From positions 1 to 43,436 of the forward strand of contig JAKLKB010000047.1 of assembly GCA_023150835.1 (NCBI GenBank): DNA of 43,436 nt. Direction: 5' to 3'. The notes under the pieces are model-generated. The model saw nothing but the letters and a program-made list of their open reading frames with translations, was not told where the DNA came from and made no database searches. The position numbers and the translations under genes are program-made. Numbering within the stretch: position 1 is the stretch's first letter; every line of letters starts with the position of its first letter. This DNA is from Myxococcota bacterium (lineage in GTDB: Bacteria > Myxococcota_C > UBA6777). This document shows positions 8,951-17,848 of this stretch, in pieces.

Positions 8951-10741
<1,791 letters not shown>

Positions 10742-10781
10742 TCCCCCGATCTATCCGACAAATCGCTCTTCTTCTGCTTTG

Positions 10782-10816
10782 AAAAACCCTCGTGATCGAA
10801 TCACGGGGGTTTTTTC
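10782..10816 (+). terminator. Intrinsic terminator of groES-groEL
   Basis: A hairpin with arms AAAAACCCTCGTGAT and ATCACGGGGGTTTTT, a CGA loop and one G-T pair runs directly into a T-rich tract. It starts 41 bp after the groEL stop. Confidence 0.9.
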
Positions 10817-10882
10817 GTTTGGGCGTGTGCGTGTGTGCGATCTTGTTCGGTGGATCGGCGTGTTGGAACTCTTGATGAGGGG

Positions 10883-10994
10883 GGAGTGCTTGGGTGTAAG
10901 TGGGGTGGAGTGCTTGGGTGTAAGTGGGGTGAAGGCTTTCGCGCACCGCAACGGAGCGAGGGGTTTTTGTGGAGTGCTTGGGTGTAAGTGGGGT
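10883..10994 (+). repeat. 24-bp noncoding repeat, three copies
   Basis: The unit GGAGTGCTTGGGTGTAAGTG plus GGGT occurs at 10883-10906, 10907-10930 (directly tandem) and 10971-10994. The third copy is separated by 40 bp. Function unknown. Confidence 0.85.
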
Positions 10995-11205
10995 GAAGGG
11001 CTTGGGGGGTCGGTGAGATCAAACGCGGGTGAGAAAGGTCTTGGGCTGAAACGCGGAAGGTTCGTCTATACCGCTGTCGCGTGTCTTGTGGTGAGCGAAG
11101 AAGAACAACCTCGCAAGAAAGAAACGGCTGTAGTACAAAGAGCAGGGATGTGTTTGTGCTTGAGTGAGACCGCTTTCGGTATGTACGAGTCTTGAGGAGT
11201 AAGGA

Positions 11206-11769
11206 TTGCAAGGTCACGATGAAAAGACGCTGCTTGCGAAGGCAAAGTCCGGTGATGAGCAAGCGTTTATGGCCCTCTATCAGAAGTATTATTCGACGGT
11301 CTATCGTTTTTGTCAGACCTTTGGTGGGATCGATCGAGACATCGCGAAGGATATCTTGCAAGAGTCCTTTGTTCGGGCGTTTCGTCACCTCGGCAAGTTG
11401 CGCGAAGGGCAAAAGTTTCTTTCGTGGCTATTGACGATCACACGCAACCGTTGCCTGAGCCACCTCAGCAAAGAGGAAAACTTTGGCAAAAAACATTCGG
11501 CGTGGAGTCTCGAAACGGAACTTTTTTCCGTACCCGATAACTTGGAGCAGATCGAGACAGAGCGTCAGATCGCTTTGGTTCACCAGATCATCGACGATCT
11601 GCCGAGCGGTGGAATGAAAGACTGTGTACGAGCCTTTTATATAGAAGGATTGAGCACCTCAGATATCGCGCAACGCCTCGATATCCCCAAAAGCACCGTG
11701 ACCACGCGCCTTGATCGCTTTCGCAACCGCATACGCAAGCGCCTATTGGCCCGTCTGATGGAGCTTTAA
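11206..11769 (+). CDS. ECF-type RNA polymerase sigma factor
   Basis: The 187-residue product has the size and two-domain layout of ECF sigma factors. Region 2 spans roughly residues 10-80 (DEQAFMALYQKYYSTVYRF, DILQESFVRAFRHLGKL, FLSWLLTITRNRCLSHL). Region 4 spans roughly residues 125-180 and ends in a helix-turn-helix, SDIAQRLDIPKSTVTTRLDR. The start is TTG at 11206, preceded by GAGGAG with 6-nt spacing; no ATG in frame fits better. The next gene downstream encodes a cytoplasmic-N-terminus membrane protein that could be its anti-sigma factor, and then a caspase-like lipoprotein. The regulon is likely envelope-related by context; the specific signal is unknown. Confidence 0.93.
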   Translation: MQGHDEKTLLAKAKSGDEQAFMALYQKYYSTVYRFCQTFGGIDRDIAKDILQESFVRAFRHLGKLREGQKFLSWLLTITRNRCLSHLSKEENFGKKHSAWSLETELFSVPDNLEQIETERQIALVHQIIDDLPSGGMKDCVRAFYIEGLSTSDIAQRLDIPKSTVTTRLDRFRNRIRKRLLARLMEL

Positions 11770-11915
11770 GATCTCCTCACTTCCGAATCAACTGCGCCAC
11801 TCCTCTCTCAAAAAGCGTTGTGCCTTCTGCTGTTTTGGTATGTTTTTGAAAGAAATCCTGCGCAAGCAGACAACACATCGAGAGAACACAAAACACTCGA
11901 CTTGAGCGAAAAAAC

Positions 11916-12977
11916 ATGAAGACCACACCCTTCGCGACCCATACCCTCGATGCCGAGATGATCGCGCAGATCTATCGCGGCGAGATATCCCACCAACACG
12001 CGCCTGATCTGTATGCGGCCTTGCACACAGAAGATGACGCTTTCGATCCTTTCCAAGCCTTTCACGCCCCCAACGAACCTCTCGAACTCGACGCTCAAGA
12101 AAGCGAAGCGATCCTTCGCTCGATCTTGCAACAGACTTCGCTTGTTTCTTCGCACTCCACTTCCGCCGCAGATGCGCCTTTTTCTGCCACAGACGCACTT
12201 CGCTCTGCCGCACCTTTGGCCGAAACGCGCCGAAATCAACATACGCGAACGTCTGATCCCTCGAAACCATCGCTGCTGCGCGATCTTTGGCAAAATTTTC
12301 GTCGCGCTTGGTTGGCTCCCCTTGCTGTGGGCATGGCTGCCGTGCTGATCTTCCCCGTTATCTCGACCATTTCGCCATCTTCGCCATCTTCGCCATCTTC
12401 GCCATCTTCGCCATCTTCGCCATCTTCGCCATCTTCGCCATCTTCAAAGACCCCGATCGCTGTTCCCAACCAGCCCTTGCCGCGTGTGATCTCGCCGACA
12501 ACACCGCGCTTGGCTGTTCCCGATATCCTGCACAAGGGAGATCGCGATCGCCTCGCTTTTTTTGCCGTCGATCTTTACCCTGCTGCTGTGCGCGCCCAAG
12601 ATCCCAAAAAAGCCCATCCCTTCCGCAACAACGCAACCCTTCATCCCGAAGATGCTCTGCTCTTTCACTTCGTCAACCTTCGGCGCGGGTATCTGTACCT
12701 TTTGCGCGAAGACGCGCTGGGTCGTTTTGAAACGCTCTATCCCTTCGATCCAAAACACGCAATCCCCCAATCTCCCGGCAAGATCACCCTTAAACAAGCC
12801 GAACAACCCATGGTCTACGTCCTTGAACCCAAGATGATCGGACGCCAACGCTTTTGGCTGCTTCATTCGCCCACCCCCCAAACCTTCCCCCAAGAACGCA
12901 ATGCCCTCTCTCCCGCCTTGCGTAAGCTTTTCCTATATGCCGATCACATCACGTTGTTTGTGCGCCAACGCGAATAG
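11916..12977 (+). CDS. Single-pass membrane protein with DUF4384-like C-terminus, possible anti-sigma factor
   Basis: The 353-residue product has an acidic N-terminal ~125 residues, one membrane helix (WLAPLAVGMAAVLIFPVIST, ~residue 130), a Ser-Pro-Ser repeat linker and a ~150-residue C-terminal domain. That domain resembles DUF4384, with DALLFHFVNLRRGYLYLLREDALGRFETLYP. DUF4384 domains are commonly found next to caspase-like or kinase genes, which fits the caspase gene downstream. The N-terminus begins ...DAEMIAQIYRGEI, as in membrane anti-sigma factors, but has no zinc-binding ZAS motif (HxxxCxxC). Anti-sigma function is therefore inferred mainly from order and topology. Confidence 0.8.
   Translation: MKTTPFATHTLDAEMIAQIYRGEISHQHAPDLYAALHTEDDAFDPFQAFHAPNEPLELDAQESEAILRSILQQTSLVSSHSTSAADAPFSATDALRSAAPLAETRRNQHTRTSDPSKPSLLRDLWQNFRRAWLAPLAVGMAAVLIFPVISTISPSSPSSPSSPSSPSSPSSPSSPSSKTPIAVPNQPLPRVISPTTPRLAVPDILHKGDRDRLAFFAVDLYPAAVRAQDPKKAHPFRNNATLHPEDALLFHFVNLRRGYLYLLREDALGRFETLYPFDPKHAIPQSPGKITLKQAEQPMVYVLEPKMIGRQRFWLLHSPTPQTFPQERNALSPALRKLFLYADHITLFVRQRE
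12372..12443 (+). repeat. 9-bp in-frame tandem repeat, 8 copies
   Basis: Eight perfect copies of TCGCCATCT encode Ser-Pro-Ser units immediately after the membrane helix. Copy-number slippage would change periplasmic linker length without a frameshift. Confidence 0.95.
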
Positions 12978-13162
12978 TTCGCTGCCTTTTGCGCTCCACT
13001 TCCCCTTGTCTCCCCCTCCCTCTCCAAACAAAACGAATTGCGCAACGTTTTATAGATCTTGAAGATCATCCTTCGTGTGTGTACTATCCAAGGCTGTGTG
13101 CTGTAATGTGTTGCGCAAAGATTTGTTGTGTGTTTGTTTTTTGATACGTTGTGGAGTTTGCC

Positions 13163-14839
13163 GTGTATCCGCCACAGATGACCTTTTTGGCCTTCTGGGG
13201 GAAGCCGATGGCGCTGTTGTCAGCGCTGTTGTTGGCTGGTTGTGCATCTTCACGCGCTGTCTCGACGGAAAAGGGCTTTCGCCCACTCGCCTCTCTCCAA
13301 ACTGCCGCTGTTTTGCCCAAAAAAGGAAAAAAGATCGCCCTCTTGATCGGCGTGAATCGCTATCAAGATCGCGCATGGCATCCGTTGCGTTTTGCCGCCA
13401 AAGATGCTGCGGATCTCGCCGAAGTGCTCCGCAACCCCAAAACAGGGGGCTTTGATCAAGTCCTGCTACTCGCTGATCCCACCGCCACCACAAGAAAAGG
13501 CATCTTGCGCGCCTTTGAACGTCTGCGCCAACTGAACACCCATCCGCACGATACGCTCTTTGTGTACATCTCGGGGCATGGCACGCTTGCACGCGATCCC
13601 CAACACTCCTTGCGCCGCTACCTCGTCACGTATGACACCCAACAGCGCGATATCCACAAAAGCGCCCTCTCCATCGCACGCCTCCGCCATCACTTTGCCC
13701 AACTCAAAAGCGAGCGAAAAGTGATGTTGCTCGCCACCTGCCACTCTGGAACAGGAAAAAGCCGCCTCAATCAAACCATGCTTGCAGAACTCAAAACCAT
13801 CAAAGGCGCTTTTTTTACCCAACCGATCGAGGATTCCTCACGCGCAACCATCTTCCTCGCCGTCTGCGCTTTTGGTGAAACAGCCCGTGAATCCGCTGAA
13901 CTTCAAAACGATATCTATACTCACTACTTCATCAAAGCCCTCAAACACCGCTATGATGCCAACGGGGACGGAGCCGTCACCGTCTCCGAAGCCCACGATT
14001 ATGCCCGTGAGATGACCTACTTTCACACCAAAGGCGCACAACGCGCCTACGCAGAGTCCGATATCCTTGGCACCGATCCGATCGTCTTGTCCGGTCAAAA
14101 AAAACGCAACGGAAAGCCCGTTCTATACGCTTATGACAACCACTTCCAAGGCGTCGAAGTCCAGATTAACGGCATCCCACGCGGCTCCTTCCCAAAAGGC
14201 ATCCCTGTTCAAATGGGCCGACAACAGATCACCCTCAAAACAGGCGAACACAAACTGTTCGAAGGGATGGTCGTGTTCCAAGACGGCGAACGCATGGACG
14301 CCAAAGAGCTTTTTGAGCGCCGTGATTATCGCTTTGCCATCGCACTCAAGGCGGGTTATCAGTTCTTTCTCCAAGGCTCCTCCGCCGATATCCTCTCGCG
14401 TGAACTTCCGCTGTTTGGCGTTGAACTCAAACTACAACGCCCTTGGTCTGATCTCCCCATCGATTTCCGCTTTGAATTCGCCTTCTCCCGCAACAGTCAC
14501 AAACTTCTCGAACAGGACAACCGACCGCAAACCGTCACCGAATTCAACGTGGCCATCGCTGCGACCTATGTGTGGAAGATCCAATGGTTTTCGCTGTTTG
14601 TGGGGCCGCGTTTGAGTGCGATCTACCTTGAACGCCAATCCGATATCCACAAACAGATCAATGACTTCTTTTTCTCTTTTCAGCCCGGCTTGGTGCTTGG
14701 GGCAGAAGCGCTGCTTTTAGAAAGATGGAGTCTTTTCGCCGAGGGGCGGGTCAACTACACGTACGTGGCGACAGAGTCCGGCCCCGCACGACACCAAGGC
14801 TCTTATGAGTTCTTGGGCGGCGTTTTTGTGCATTTCTGA
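13163..14839 (+). CDS. Caspase-like (peptidase C14) lipoprotein with C-terminal predicted beta-barrel
   Basis: From the GTG at 13163 (GGAG 6 nt upstream) the product is 558 residues; ATG 13208 (GGGGGAAG upstream) is an alternative. The lipobox LLAGC gives lipidated Cys27. Residues ~57-260 are a caspase-fold domain with LIGVNRYQD, catalytic His139 in YISGHG and Cys193 in LLATCHSG, so the dyad is intact. A DANGDGAVTVSE EF-hand-like loop follows. A short PEGA-like segment (VEVQINGIPRGSFPKG) precedes ~200 residues of alternating aromatic/hydrophobic strands that end GGVFVHF, like outer-membrane barrels with terminal Phe. The enzyme probably acts in the periplasm, cleaving after basic residues as metacaspases and paracaspases do, but no substrate is evident. 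Confidence 0.85.
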   Translation: MYPPQMTFLAFWGKPMALLSALLLAGCASSRAVSTEKGFRPLASLQTAAVLPKKGKKIALLIGVNRYQDRAWHPLRFAAKDAADLAEVLRNPKTGGFDQVLLLADPTATTRKGILRAFERLRQLNTHPHDTLFVYISGHGTLARDPQHSLRRYLVTYDTQQRDIHKSALSIARLRHHFAQLKSERKVMLLATCHSGTGKSRLNQTMLAELKTIKGAFFTQPIEDSSRATIFLAVCAFGETARESAELQNDIYTHYFIKALKHRYDANGDGAVTVSEAHDYAREMTYFHTKGAQRAYAESDILGTDPIVLSGQKKRNGKPVLYAYDNHFQGVEVQINGIPRGSFPKGIPVQMGRQQITLKTGEHKLFEGMVVFQDGERMDAKELFERRDYRFAIALKAGYQFFLQGSSADILSRELPLFGVELKLQRPWSDLPIDFRFEFAFSRNSHKLLEQDNRPQTVTEFNVAIAATYVWKIQWFSLFVGPRLSAIYLERQSDIHKQINDFFFSFQPGLVLGAEALLLERWSLFAEGRVNYTYVATESGPARHQGSYEFLGGVFVHF

Positions 14840-14938
14840 TCCCTTTGCACTCGGCTGTTCTGTTGCTGTTTGGCTGCTGCGCTGCCCGTGTCGCGTGAGC
14901 GAAAAGCCCCATTGACCGAAGCCAACGAAGGAAGAAGT

Positions 14939-17848
14939 ATGCACCGTCATCTTCGCCGACACAGACGCCCTTCGTTCCGCACTGGAACACTGATCTTTTT
15001 TGCGCTTGTCCTGTCTTTTCTGGGTGCTTGCGGTACGATCTCCAACGATCGCTTTTTTGCGGGCCTTGGTCACTTGCGTGGGACGTTGCTCTTGCCAAGC
15101 GGTGAGCCCGCCCGATTCGCTCACATCGAAGTCGTCAATCTCCCTCAACTTACCGCCCAAACCGATGCCCAAGGCGACTTTCTGTTGTCCTCCGTCCCTG
15201 CGGGAAAACGCGATATCCTGTTTCGCCTAGGCGAAGAATTCGGCCTTCGCCTTCAACTCTGGATCGTTCGCGATCACACCCTTTCGCTTGAAACTCCGCA
15301 GCGCACGTTGCTGCCTTCTGCGATCCTCGAAGGCTCCGTCCAAGCGGCCCCTCGCTTCGGCGCAAAAAACATCCAGATCGCCCTCAAAGGTACTTCTCTC
15401 TCCACCCTCACCCTCGATCCACAAGGAACCTTTCGGATGCGTGGCATCCCTCCCTTGCTTCCGAACAATACAACGGCTTGCCACTCTTTCTCTATCCAAA
15501 CCGCCGCCTTTCATCCCTCTCGTCTCGATGATATCTGCCCACAGCCCGGACAGATCATCCGCCTTGAGCAACCCGTCCGACTCCAACCCCAACGCGCTTG
15601 TTTGGCCCAATCTTGCGCCCAAGACGAGATCTGCGAAGCTGGATTCTGTGTCCCTGACAACGGCGGCTCTCTCAAGATCCTCACGCCTTCCCTCCAATTT
15701 CCCACCCTCGCCTACGCTGGCGAACAACGCCAAGAACGCGAACTCCTTCAAAATACCGGCCTCGGCCCCTTGTTGATCGAATCGATCTCCCTCCACGATC
15801 CCGAACACACCTTCTCTTTGGAAGGACTTCCCTCGTTGCCTTTTCGCCTTGCTCCACAAGAAAGTCTGCGAGCCACCGTGCGCTTCTCTGTGGACTCAAA
15901 GATCCCGATGTTTGGGCTTTATCAAGCAAAGATCAGCATCTCTGCCCGTCATGAAGGCCAAGGCAAGCTGTTTTCGATCCCGCTCTCGGGCATGGTGATC
16001 GGCCAAAATGCGCCGCTTTCGCAGTGCATCCAAACCAAGATCACCGAACCCACTACCCCACCACCCCAACCCGGCACGCCTTCGGGGCTGTACGACGTCG
16101 ATCTCACCAACACATGCGACCAAGAAGTGATCCTCTCTGATATCACGGGAACTTCGCCTGTCCAAGCCTTGCTCGCCGCCGATCAACCCCAACGCTGGTT
16201 GACTTCTCTTCAACATCTCCCTTTGCGCCTTGCATCGGGCGCGACCGCTCGCGTTCAATTTCAATGGATGCCCGGCCATTACGGAACCTTCCAAGGCGAA
16301 GCCTTGCTTCGCTTTCAAAAATCCGATCAATCCGATACTTTTGTGGCCAAGTTTGCTCTTCAAGCCGAACTGCGGCCCCCCAGCGTTATCCTCCCCCACG
16401 ATATCATCTCGCTCGGACATCTTGGGCCGGGTGATACCCGTTACGCTTTTTTGCCGATCACTCTCTCCGAAGCCAAACGCTCCCTCACCTACGCACAAGT
16501 CGATATCCTCACGGCTTTTGGAGGCCGCGCAACCCAGTTTCGCACTGAGCCTTTTGTCCCTCGGCTTGAGCAACAAAGCCACCAACATATCCTGACCTTC
16601 GTCTATACTGCCCCTTCACTCCAAGGGCGCGATGAAGCGTGGCTGCTTTTGCGTGGTCTCTCCGACCTCGGCGGATATCCTTACGCCGTCCAAATACAGG
16701 CCCAGATCACCCAACAACCTCTCCCACAGATCGCCCCCCGCCAACACATCGCCGCGACGTATGCTTGTGCTTCTCCTGAAACGCCCCTCTTGCTTTCCAA
16801 TCCCTCCGATACACCGCTCACCCTTCGCCAGATCTCCTTGCCGAACGCACCCACCAATGACTTCGTTTTGCGCTTGCCCACACTTCCCCTGACTCTTCCA
16901 CCCAAAGAGTCGCGCACCGTGGCGTGGGTGCGCTTTACTCCCCCTTCCCTCGGCAATCTTCAAGCCTTCCGCAGTTTCGCCACCCTTCAACTTGATGGCT
17001 TCGATGCACAACGATCGCCGTTTTCTTTGCGCTCTACCCTCCAAGCCTCTTCAGGGTTCCCCGCGCTGCGCACCTACCCGATGCGAAAGCTCCAAGATGC
17101 CCATGTGGTGGTCTATATCGACCCCTCGATCGAGACGCTCACAGCCTCTTTCGATCTCAAACAACGCCTGCTTGAACTCTTTTCTCAACTCAAACAAGAA
17201 GGCGTCACCTTGCGCTTTTATCGCGCTTCGCTCCAAGCGCCCCAAGCACTCGCCAGTTATGAACAGCTTTGGCTCATCGATCGCGATATCCGTTCCCAAG
17301 GACTGGCCGCCCTTTCCAAAACCCTGTCCTCTTTGCGCGATGCCGATATCCAAACCTATGGTGCCGCGAGACCAGCCCTCGCACTCGTTGTATCGGCCCG
17401 AGACGATGCCTCTGCTTTCTCCATTCAACGCTATCTCCCCCCCGCTCAAGAGGATCCCTCGTGGCTGCTGTTTTCGGCGATCCCCTCCCAAACCTGTTCC
17501 TCTCAACTTTCCGCTTCAACGCGCTATCTCGAAAGTACATACGCAGGAAGCGGCCTTGCCTTCGACCTTTGTGCGATGCTTCAACCGCGTGGCTTGCTCA
17601 TCCTCAATTCTTGGATCGCAGAGATCAAAGCGGCTTTTCTTGGCCAGCGCACTCGCTTTCATCTCCACCAAACACCCGACCTCAGCACGCTCTCTCTCAA
17701 ATACGCCGAGGCTCTTCTTACGCAAAACCTCCAATGGTCCTTCGATCCCACCCTTGCCCAGATATCCCTGTCTTCTGTTCTTCCTCTCCACCCCGAACAT
17801 CCATCCCTTGAAGCCTCCTTTTTTACGCCCTGCGCCCCCTTGCCCTAA
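14939..17848 (+). CDS. Large lipoprotein with carboxypeptidase-regulatory-like and ASH/Ig-like domains
   Basis: The 969-residue product starts at ATG 14939 (GGA 6 nt upstream). It has a basic n-region, a hydrophobic segment and the lipobox LGAC (Cys31). Residues ~45-115 look like a carboxypeptidase regulatory-like fold (GTLLLPSGEPARFAHIEV, TDAQGDFLLSSVPAG). A Cys-rich loop (CLAQSCAQDEICEAGFC) at ~230 is followed by several ASH/DUF1573-like Ig domains (LLQNTGLGPLLIESISL; LRATVRFS). The C-terminal ~270 residues have an alpha/beta start, DAHVVVYIDPSIE, reminiscent of a von Willebrand A fold but with the metal motif not intact. Its position right after the caspase gene suggests the same surface system. 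Specific function unknown. Confidence 0.8.
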   Translation: MHRHLRRHRRPSFRTGTLIFFALVLSFLGACGTISNDRFFAGLGHLRGTLLLPSGEPARFAHIEVVNLPQLTAQTDAQGDFLLSSVPAGKRDILFRLGEEFGLRLQLWIVRDHTLSLETPQRTLLPSAILEGSVQAAPRFGAKNIQIALKGTSLSTLTLDPQGTFRMRGIPPLLPNNTTACHSFSIQTAAFHPSRLDDICPQPGQIIRLEQPVRLQPQRACLAQSCAQDEICEAGFCVPDNGGSLKILTPSLQFPTLAYAGEQRQERELLQNTGLGPLLIESISLHDPEHTFSLEGLPSLPFRLAPQESLRATVRFSVDSKIPMFGLYQAKISISARHEGQGKLFSIPLSGMVIGQNAPLSQCIQTKITEPTTPPPQPGTPSGLYDVDLTNTCDQEVILSDITGTSPVQALLAADQPQRWLTSLQHLPLRLASGATARVQFQWMPGHYGTFQGEALLRFQKSDQSDTFVAKFALQAELRPPSVILPHDIISLGHLGPGDTRYAFLPITLSEAKRSLTYAQVDILTAFGGRATQFRTEPFVPRLEQQSHQHILTFVYTAPSLQGRDEAWLLLRGLSDLGGYPYAVQIQAQITQQPLPQIAPRQHIAATYACASPETPLLLSNPSDTPLTLRQISLPNAPTNDFVLRLPTLPLTLPPKESRTVAWVRFTPPSLGNLQAFRSFATLQLDGFDAQRSPFSLRSTLQASSGFPALRTYPMRKLQDAHVVVYIDPSIETLTASFDLKQRLLELFSQLKQEGVTLRFYRASLQAPQALASYEQLWLIDRDIRSQGLAALSKTLSSLRDADIQTYGAARPALALVVSARDDASAFSIQRYLPPAQEDPSWLLFSAIPSQTCSSQLSASTRYLESTYAGSGLAFDLCAMLQPRGLLILNSWIAEIKAAFLGQRTRFHLHQTPDLSTLSLKYAEALLTQNLQWSFDPTLAQISLSSVLPLHPEHPSLEASFFTPCAPLP

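Follow-up and report, generated by a model that had tools for sequence, protein, structure and literature searches.

A conserved gene module of an ECF sigma factor, a probable transmembrane anti-sigma factor, a predicted periplasmic caspase and a lipoprotein in a Myxococcota bacterium

The window analysed here is a stretch of 43,436 nucleotides from a Myxococcota bacterium and corresponds to contig C205 of a genome of 7.56 Mb. Four intact genes on its forward strand encode, in this order, an ECF sigma factor, a single-pass membrane protein (P2), a caspase ending in a barrel and a lipoprotein (Table 1). This composition had been proposed in a sequence-only reading and was confirmed with Pfam and NCBIfam profiles and with structure models. 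The sigma factor contains regions 2 and 4 only within about 190 aa, as in ECF (group IV sigma-70) factors, and domain scores were high for Sigma70_r2 (E=6.7e-15) and r4_2 (E=9.5e-7) in Pfam and for sigma70-ECF in NCBIfam (84 bits vs a cut-off of 42.9). The gaps between sigma and P2 (146 nt) and between P2 and caspase (173 nt) are wider than those of relatives and leave room enough for separate promoters; comparison across genera revealed no further conserved promoter in the interval from P2 to caspase. For the lipoprotein, the likely start is ATG 14939, which gives the 969 residues of the Ig/ASH lipoprotein read earlier (992 aa from 14870). Its CarboxypepD_reg and choice-of-anchor-D/ASH-type domains score below cut-off in the window copy and above cut-off in orthologs.

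Table 1. Features of the module, with positions in the window
Feature	Position	Strand	Details
Promoter-like motif TGAGACC-N15-GAGTC	11165..11191	+	ends 14 nt before sigma start codon
ECF-type sigma factor	11206..11769	+	187 aa; Pfam Sigma70_r2/r4_2 and NCBIfam sigma70-ECF above cut-off
P2, probable transmembrane anti-sigma factor	11916..12977	+	353 aa; adjoins sigma in relatives; zinc ligands absent
P2 cytoplasmic helical domain, anti-sigma-domain-like	11952..12146	+	aa 13-77; helices 13-21, 26-37, 60-77 in model
P2 transmembrane helix	12306..12362	+	aa 131-149; sole hydrophobic segment
9-bp tandem repeat encoding P2 (SPS)n linker	12367..12445	+	TRF: 8.9 copies, 98% match
P2 DUF4384-like periplasmic beta domain	12555..12962	+	aa 214-349; beta-sandwich, pLDDT mostly above 90
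Caspase (C14) lipoprotein with C-terminal outer-membrane barrel	13151..14839	+	562 aa; Pfam C14
Caspase domain	13328..14059	+	aa 60-303
Catalytic dyad	His143, 13577-13579; Cys197, 13739-13741	+	counted from GTG 13151
8-strand beta-barrel	14333..14833	+	aa 395-561; eight long model strands
Lipoprotein, CarboxypepD_reg + Cys-rich + ASH/Ig-like domains	14870..17848	+	969-992 aa

The assigned phylum is represented in the genome collection by five species genomes of one family and three genera, and each of them has sigma, P2, caspase and lipoprotein in this order. Sigma orthologs inside this family are 67-98% identical; between genera, identities are 68-70% for sigma and 58-62% for the caspase, and P2 (25-27%) and the lipoprotein (26-29%) are much more divergent. 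The downstream OTC and HD genes were matched in the sister species only among these five genomes, and thus serve as a control for the conservation of order in the module. A scan of 84,980 species genomes for relatives of the caspase gave 28 full-length proteins (L051-L078), most of them from Myxococcaceae (Myxococcus xanthus, Corallococcus, Archangium, Pyxidicoccus and Citreicoccus) and some from deltaproteobacterial MAGs. When profiles of the four proteins were applied, all four were recovered in one order and on one strand in nearly all relatives with a long enough contig, and the four-gene order is conserved in about 20 genomes of Myxococcaceae and relatives, including M. xanthus. Hence, the earlier proposal that the four genes belong to one system is borne out by their co-conservation in the whole family and in most of the 28 relatives, and the lack of co-conservation named there as a refuting outcome did not occur. 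Exceptions at L056, L058 and L062 come from truncated contigs, and the fourth gene was not resolved in the distant relative L073. The profile also missed the fourth gene in L075 and L077; the caspase of L077 is nevertheless followed by a CarboxypepD_reg lipoprotein. In L076, sigma lies on the opposite strand and P2 is absent. The lipoprotein 3′ of the caspase in Myxococcaceae is shorter and homologous to the N-terminal part of the window lipoprotein.

Four genes may also stay adjacent by descent with no common function. The wide gaps among the first three genes of the window would agree with this explanation, as would groEL, which likewise adjoins the module, on its upstream side, in 5/5 family genomes. 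However, the same order is found in Myxococcaceae with genes that touch or overlap, as expected for a single transcript (in M. xanthus, 6 nt separate sigma from P2 and 10 nt P2 from caspase, and the lipoprotein and caspase genes overlap by 1 base), and paralogous triads recur. We consider a mere conserved neighbourhood very improbable. Distances of three module proteins correlate with r of 0.93-0.98, a value that vertical inheritance alone would be expected to give.

The paralogous modules are found both in the genome of the window and in M. xanthus. Further triads of sigma, membrane protein and caspase lie on contigs C225, C75, C234 (two triads) and C113 of the former. In the C113 triad, the ATG of the middle gene overlaps the sigma stop codon as ATGA, and the middle protein matches zf-HC2 and DUF4384, with a zf-HC2 score that was above cut-off in the genome search and 21.9 vs 22.2 bits as protein. 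An M. xanthus strain has at least three such modules, among them a clear ortholog of that in the window (L074), a second four-gene module and a triad with HLESCAAC (HxxxCxxC) in the middle protein. Sigma, P2 and caspase thus form a constant core, paralogs included, and the fourth gene varies.

P2 has the layout of a transmembrane anti-sigma factor, with a gene adjacent to sigma, a helical N-terminus predicted to be cytoplasmic, one membrane helix and a periplasmic domain, where orientation and compartments follow from model and sequence together. The membrane helix is at the equivalent position in all 25 homologs. The cytoplasmic domain was modelled with moderate confidence and aligns with the HxxxxCxxC domain of orthologs; in Myxococcaceae, this is a short N-terminal domain (e.g. 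HLAAPCDTC). P2 paralogs in the window's own genome have an HxxxCxxC zinc motif in their cytoplasmic part. Because a cytoplasmic zinc motif is found both in Myxococcaceae orthologs and in paralogs of the window's genome, we read P2 as very probably the anti-sigma factor of the neighbouring sigma factor, which gives a more definite form to the tie between membrane protein and sigma that had been suggested before. The zinc ligands, and with them the HxxxCxxC of ZAS factors, are absent from P2 of the window and its family. Judged by sequence, P2 is a zinc-less relative of ZAS anti-sigma factors and not itself a ZAS, the ligands having been lost in the window's family. Pfam gave no anti-sigma match in the window P2 and detected no zf-HC2 in members of the P2 alignment. 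When the zinc-type domains were compared as profiles with the HxxxCxxC domains of the own genome, the ligands fell in register in a weak match (probability 21%).

In the periplasmic part, the window P2 scores 12.5 bits (E=0.16) for DUF4384 (PF14326) against a gathering score of 27, and its orthologs reach 28.1 bits (L041) and 46.1 bits (L042, E=5e-12). Hence the label DUF4384-like: the domain assigned in the sequence-only reading is marginal in the window copy and clear in orthologs. The linker before this domain is unconserved in both length and sequence, and its (SPS)n repeat is largely absent in the sister species L051. Sequence searches gave no relatives of P2 with solved structures, and fold matches were limited to generic beta-sandwich proteins such as RhoGDI.

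The caspase matches Peptidase_C14 (PF00656) with E=1.7e-14 (54.5 bits vs 21.4), and residues 58-316 superpose on MALT1 and metacaspase 4 with a fold Z of about 23. Its dyad residues, which are His139 and Cys193 when counted from 13163 as in the earlier note, are invariant in 25 orthologs, and the intact dyad and C-terminal barrel noticed there are both supported. The structure model (mean pLDDT 76) comprises a signal helix, the caspase domain, a small beta domain and eight long strands. An even count of long antiparallel strands and a C-terminal aromatic residue (Phe in 25/25 caspase homologs) characterize outer-membrane beta-barrels, and the matches of this barrel in the PDB were NspA (TM 0.78 to target) and OmpA/OmpX/OmpW. 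The window caspase and those of Myxococcaceae have a clear lipobox (LLAGC); the match is looser in L052, L053 and L072, and L075-L077 have a doubtful one or none. With eight strands, the barrel should have its two ends on the periplasmic side, and the protease, whose domain precedes the barrel, is expected there as well. According to the model, the caspase domain should then share a compartment with the DUF4384-like domain of P2, and the surface location assumed for the protease in the sequence-only reading is not the predicted one.

Metacaspases and MALT1 have an Asp in the S1 pocket two residues before the catalytic Cys. The corresponding residue is Ala195 in 25/25 homologs of the window caspase, which is thereby set apart from Arg/Lys-type metacaspases and paracaspases, and hence the substrate preference of the latter is not transferable to it. 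The score for the EACC1-associated caspase model (NF047832) was 97.1 bits, below the cut-off of 140. Identity with a defence system was considered and rejected, as PADLOC returned a generic caspase model only.

Upstream of sigma, the promoter-like motif TGAGACC-N15-GAGTC is common to 5/5 family genomes with unchanged spacing in the DNA alignment of the three genera, and a 7+5 match common to three genera occurred in 0 of 3000 shuffles. At the same spacing, 17 Myxococcaceae-group loci have GTGGCC-N16-[AG]GTC, and the joint form G[AT]G[AG]CC-N16-[AG]GTC is present in 22/22 loci, with its first base 26 to 60 nt upstream of the start codon used. The motif is unlike TTGACA/TATAAT. From these sequence comparisons, we infer that it is the sigma factor's own promoter; it could be that of another sigma factor. 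In the 7.56 Mb genome, the strict form is matched exactly once, at this sigma gene, and such uniqueness suggests autoregulation with the operon as main output. A large regulon was rejected, as the exact motif is single in the window's genome and other exact matches in relatives are not at shared genes. Matches with one mismatch were somewhat more frequent than in the reversed control in G000, G001 and G003 and not clearly so in G002 and G004; in ten Myxococcaceae-group genomes, the motif was near control level with perhaps two exceptions. At least one recurrent type of match apparently lies inside the caspase reading frame. Relaxed searches in family and Myxococcaceae-group genomes gave no clear shared regulon.

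Taken together, we propose, with good though not full confidence, that the module is an autoregulated ECF sigma/anti-sigma operon producing a caspase that is anchored in the outer membrane and faces the periplasm, together with a companion lipoprotein. In the resting state, P2 would hold sigma at the inner membrane, as the family evidence indicates. An envelope signal sensed through the DUF4384 domain, and possibly through caspase or lipoprotein too, would inactivate P2. Freed sigma would then recognize TGAGACC-N15-GAGTC and switch on its own operon, as suggested by the conservation and uniqueness of the motif, and lead to more sigma, P2, caspase and lipoprotein. The output is probably the caspase, which may also act back on the switch by cleaving the periplasmic linker or domain of P2. 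Throughout this scheme, we infer the binding of sigma and P2, the recognition of the motif by sigma, the protease activity of the caspase and any substrate of it.

The caspase may instead be purely an effector armed by sigma, acting in envelope remodelling, predation, lysis or defence, with house-keeping site-1/site-2 proteases, or the binding of a ligand, inactivating P2. A motif found at the operon only would make the operon products the main output, and the several caspase paralogs of the window's genome and of M. xanthus, each accompanied by a separate sigma/anti-sigma pair, point the same way. However, the choice of a caspase over other effectors beside each pair is then left unexplained, and we rate the chance of a pure effector as considerable but somewhat short of even.

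DegS cleaves RseA, and by this example the caspase could be the activating protease, cleaving P2 on the periplasmic side upon envelope stress and so releasing sigma. Such a role, which is the main hypothesis of the sequence-only reading transferred from the surface to the periplasm, is compatible with the autoregulated operon proposed above and differs in which agent inactivates P2. It would fit the invariant core of sigma, P2 and caspase, paralogs included, beside a variable fourth gene, and also the periplasm that the caspase domain and the P2 sensor domain should share according to the model. A precedent by analogy is the caspase-fold Csx29, which cleaves Csx30, an inhibitor of an ECF sigma factor (PMC10028731). 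However, caspase and P2 are predicted to be anchored in different membranes, outer and inner respectively, the sole strict motif match at the operon itself makes the caspase resemble an output, and the unconserved linker of P2 shows no conserved cleavage site. We regard the activator role as possible and rather unlikely. Its boldest form, in which an outer-membrane-tethered periplasmic caspase is a dedicated anti-sigma protease and forms a positive-feedback switch across both membranes, outside CRISPR and in several copies per myxobacterial genome, is a speculation that we hold to be unlikelier still.

In E. coli RpoE-RseA and B. subtilis SigW-RsiW, an ECF sigma factor is followed by a one-pass inhibitor with cytoplasmic N-terminus. 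The window module is similar in having a one-pass membrane protein after sigma and a motif upstream of sigma, and differs in the DUF4384-like periplasmic part and in the caspase and lipoprotein genes of the operon. Unlike ZAS-type inhibitors, the window P2 has no zinc motif. In the type III-E CRISPR CASP system (Csx29/Csx30/CASP-sigma), a caspase-fold protease, a sigma inhibitor and an ECF sigma factor are also co-encoded; however, Csx29 acts with Cas7-11 and is RNA-activated (PMC10028731), whereas the window module has no CRISPR part and its caspase is predicted to be exported and anchored in the outer membrane. The CASP system may serve as a functional precedent for the relief of ECF sigma inhibition by a caspase-fold protease, Csx30 and P2 being comparable by their known and proposed roles. 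EACC1/EACC2 systems are conserved caspase neighbourhoods, some with an ECF sigma factor, and are marked by an EACC domain together with a TPR protein (PMC8195603); the window caspase remains below the EACC1-associated cut-off.

A survey of 2012 reported that four metacaspase operons of M. xanthus DK1622 share sigma-70 genes, and that similar operons occur in Anaeromyxobacter, Haliangium, Sorangium, Ralstonia and Fibrobacter (PMC3501461). These M. xanthus operons are of the same kind as the window module, and the pairing of sigma with metacaspase is not new. The term 'anti-sigma' never occurs in its text, whereas the window module has the probable anti-sigma factor P2, and the portions of the survey covered here mention neither a DUF4384 protein nor the barrel topology, a partner lipoprotein or a promoter motif (PMC3501461). 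No paper of the open-access literature searched, with few subscription papers covered, linked DUF4384 to an ECF sigma factor. Nor did any describe the barrel topology, the motif, the DUF4384 partner, the assignment of an anti-sigma factor or the full composition. Accordingly, the earlier statement that no such system had been described holds for the exact full composition within the open-access literature, and fails for the presence of sigma-70 genes in metacaspase operons.

A probable anti-sigma factor, a conserved promoter-like motif and a defined, predicted compartment would together make a concrete and testable circuit for bacterial caspase function. M. xanthus is tractable and carries a clear ortholog of the module, and the circuit may be tested there. 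If the caspase does cut the anti-sigma factor, the control of a sigma factor by a caspase-fold protease would have a second example, this one outside CRISPR.

Genes encoding caspase domains occur at several loci in the genome of the window and in M. xanthus. In M. xanthus AM003 five such genes were found on four contigs (C333, C166, C32 and C160); C333 carries a second complete four-gene module, and C166 carries a triad of sigma factor, ZAS-like protein and caspase. With the profiles of this analysis, a sigma factor was not found in the stretches examined of C32 and C160. A typical Myxococcus-type module was also seen in a 9 Mb genome recorded as Comamonas sp. KCTC 72670 (L069), a name that is probably wrong. 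Elsewhere in the genome of the window, at least four caspase-domain genes alternate with DUF4384 proteins in one cluster (L046, contig C203, 18000-37000), and a sigma factor was not found within this stretch.

Directly 5' of the module, groEL is present in all five genomes of the family, and the interval between groEL and the sigma gene holds, in the other two genera, a small gene carrying a CxxCH-like motif (Table).

Features in and around the module
Feature	Locus	Position	Remark
Stretch containing groEL	window	8972-11206	directly upstream of module
24-bp tandem repeat	window	10879-10938	GGGGTGGAGTGCTTGGGTGTAAGT; groEL-sigma intergenic region
Small CxxCH-like-motif gene	L041	4826-5377	groEL-sigma interval
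Small CxxCH-like-motif gene	L042	8011-8574	groEL-sigma interval
Small CxxCH-like-motif gene	L043	9421-10011	groEL-sigma interval
9-bp tandem repeat	window	12367-12445	codes for SPS linker of P2
C-terminal part of lipoprotein	window	17100-17848	contains VVVYIDPS stretch

Within the module, the C-terminal part of the lipoprotein had no Pfam match, and its VVVYIDPS stretch may be von Willebrand A-like. The 9-bp repeat of P2, the probable transmembrane anti-sigma factor, is mostly absent from the sister species and probably arose by recent expansion.
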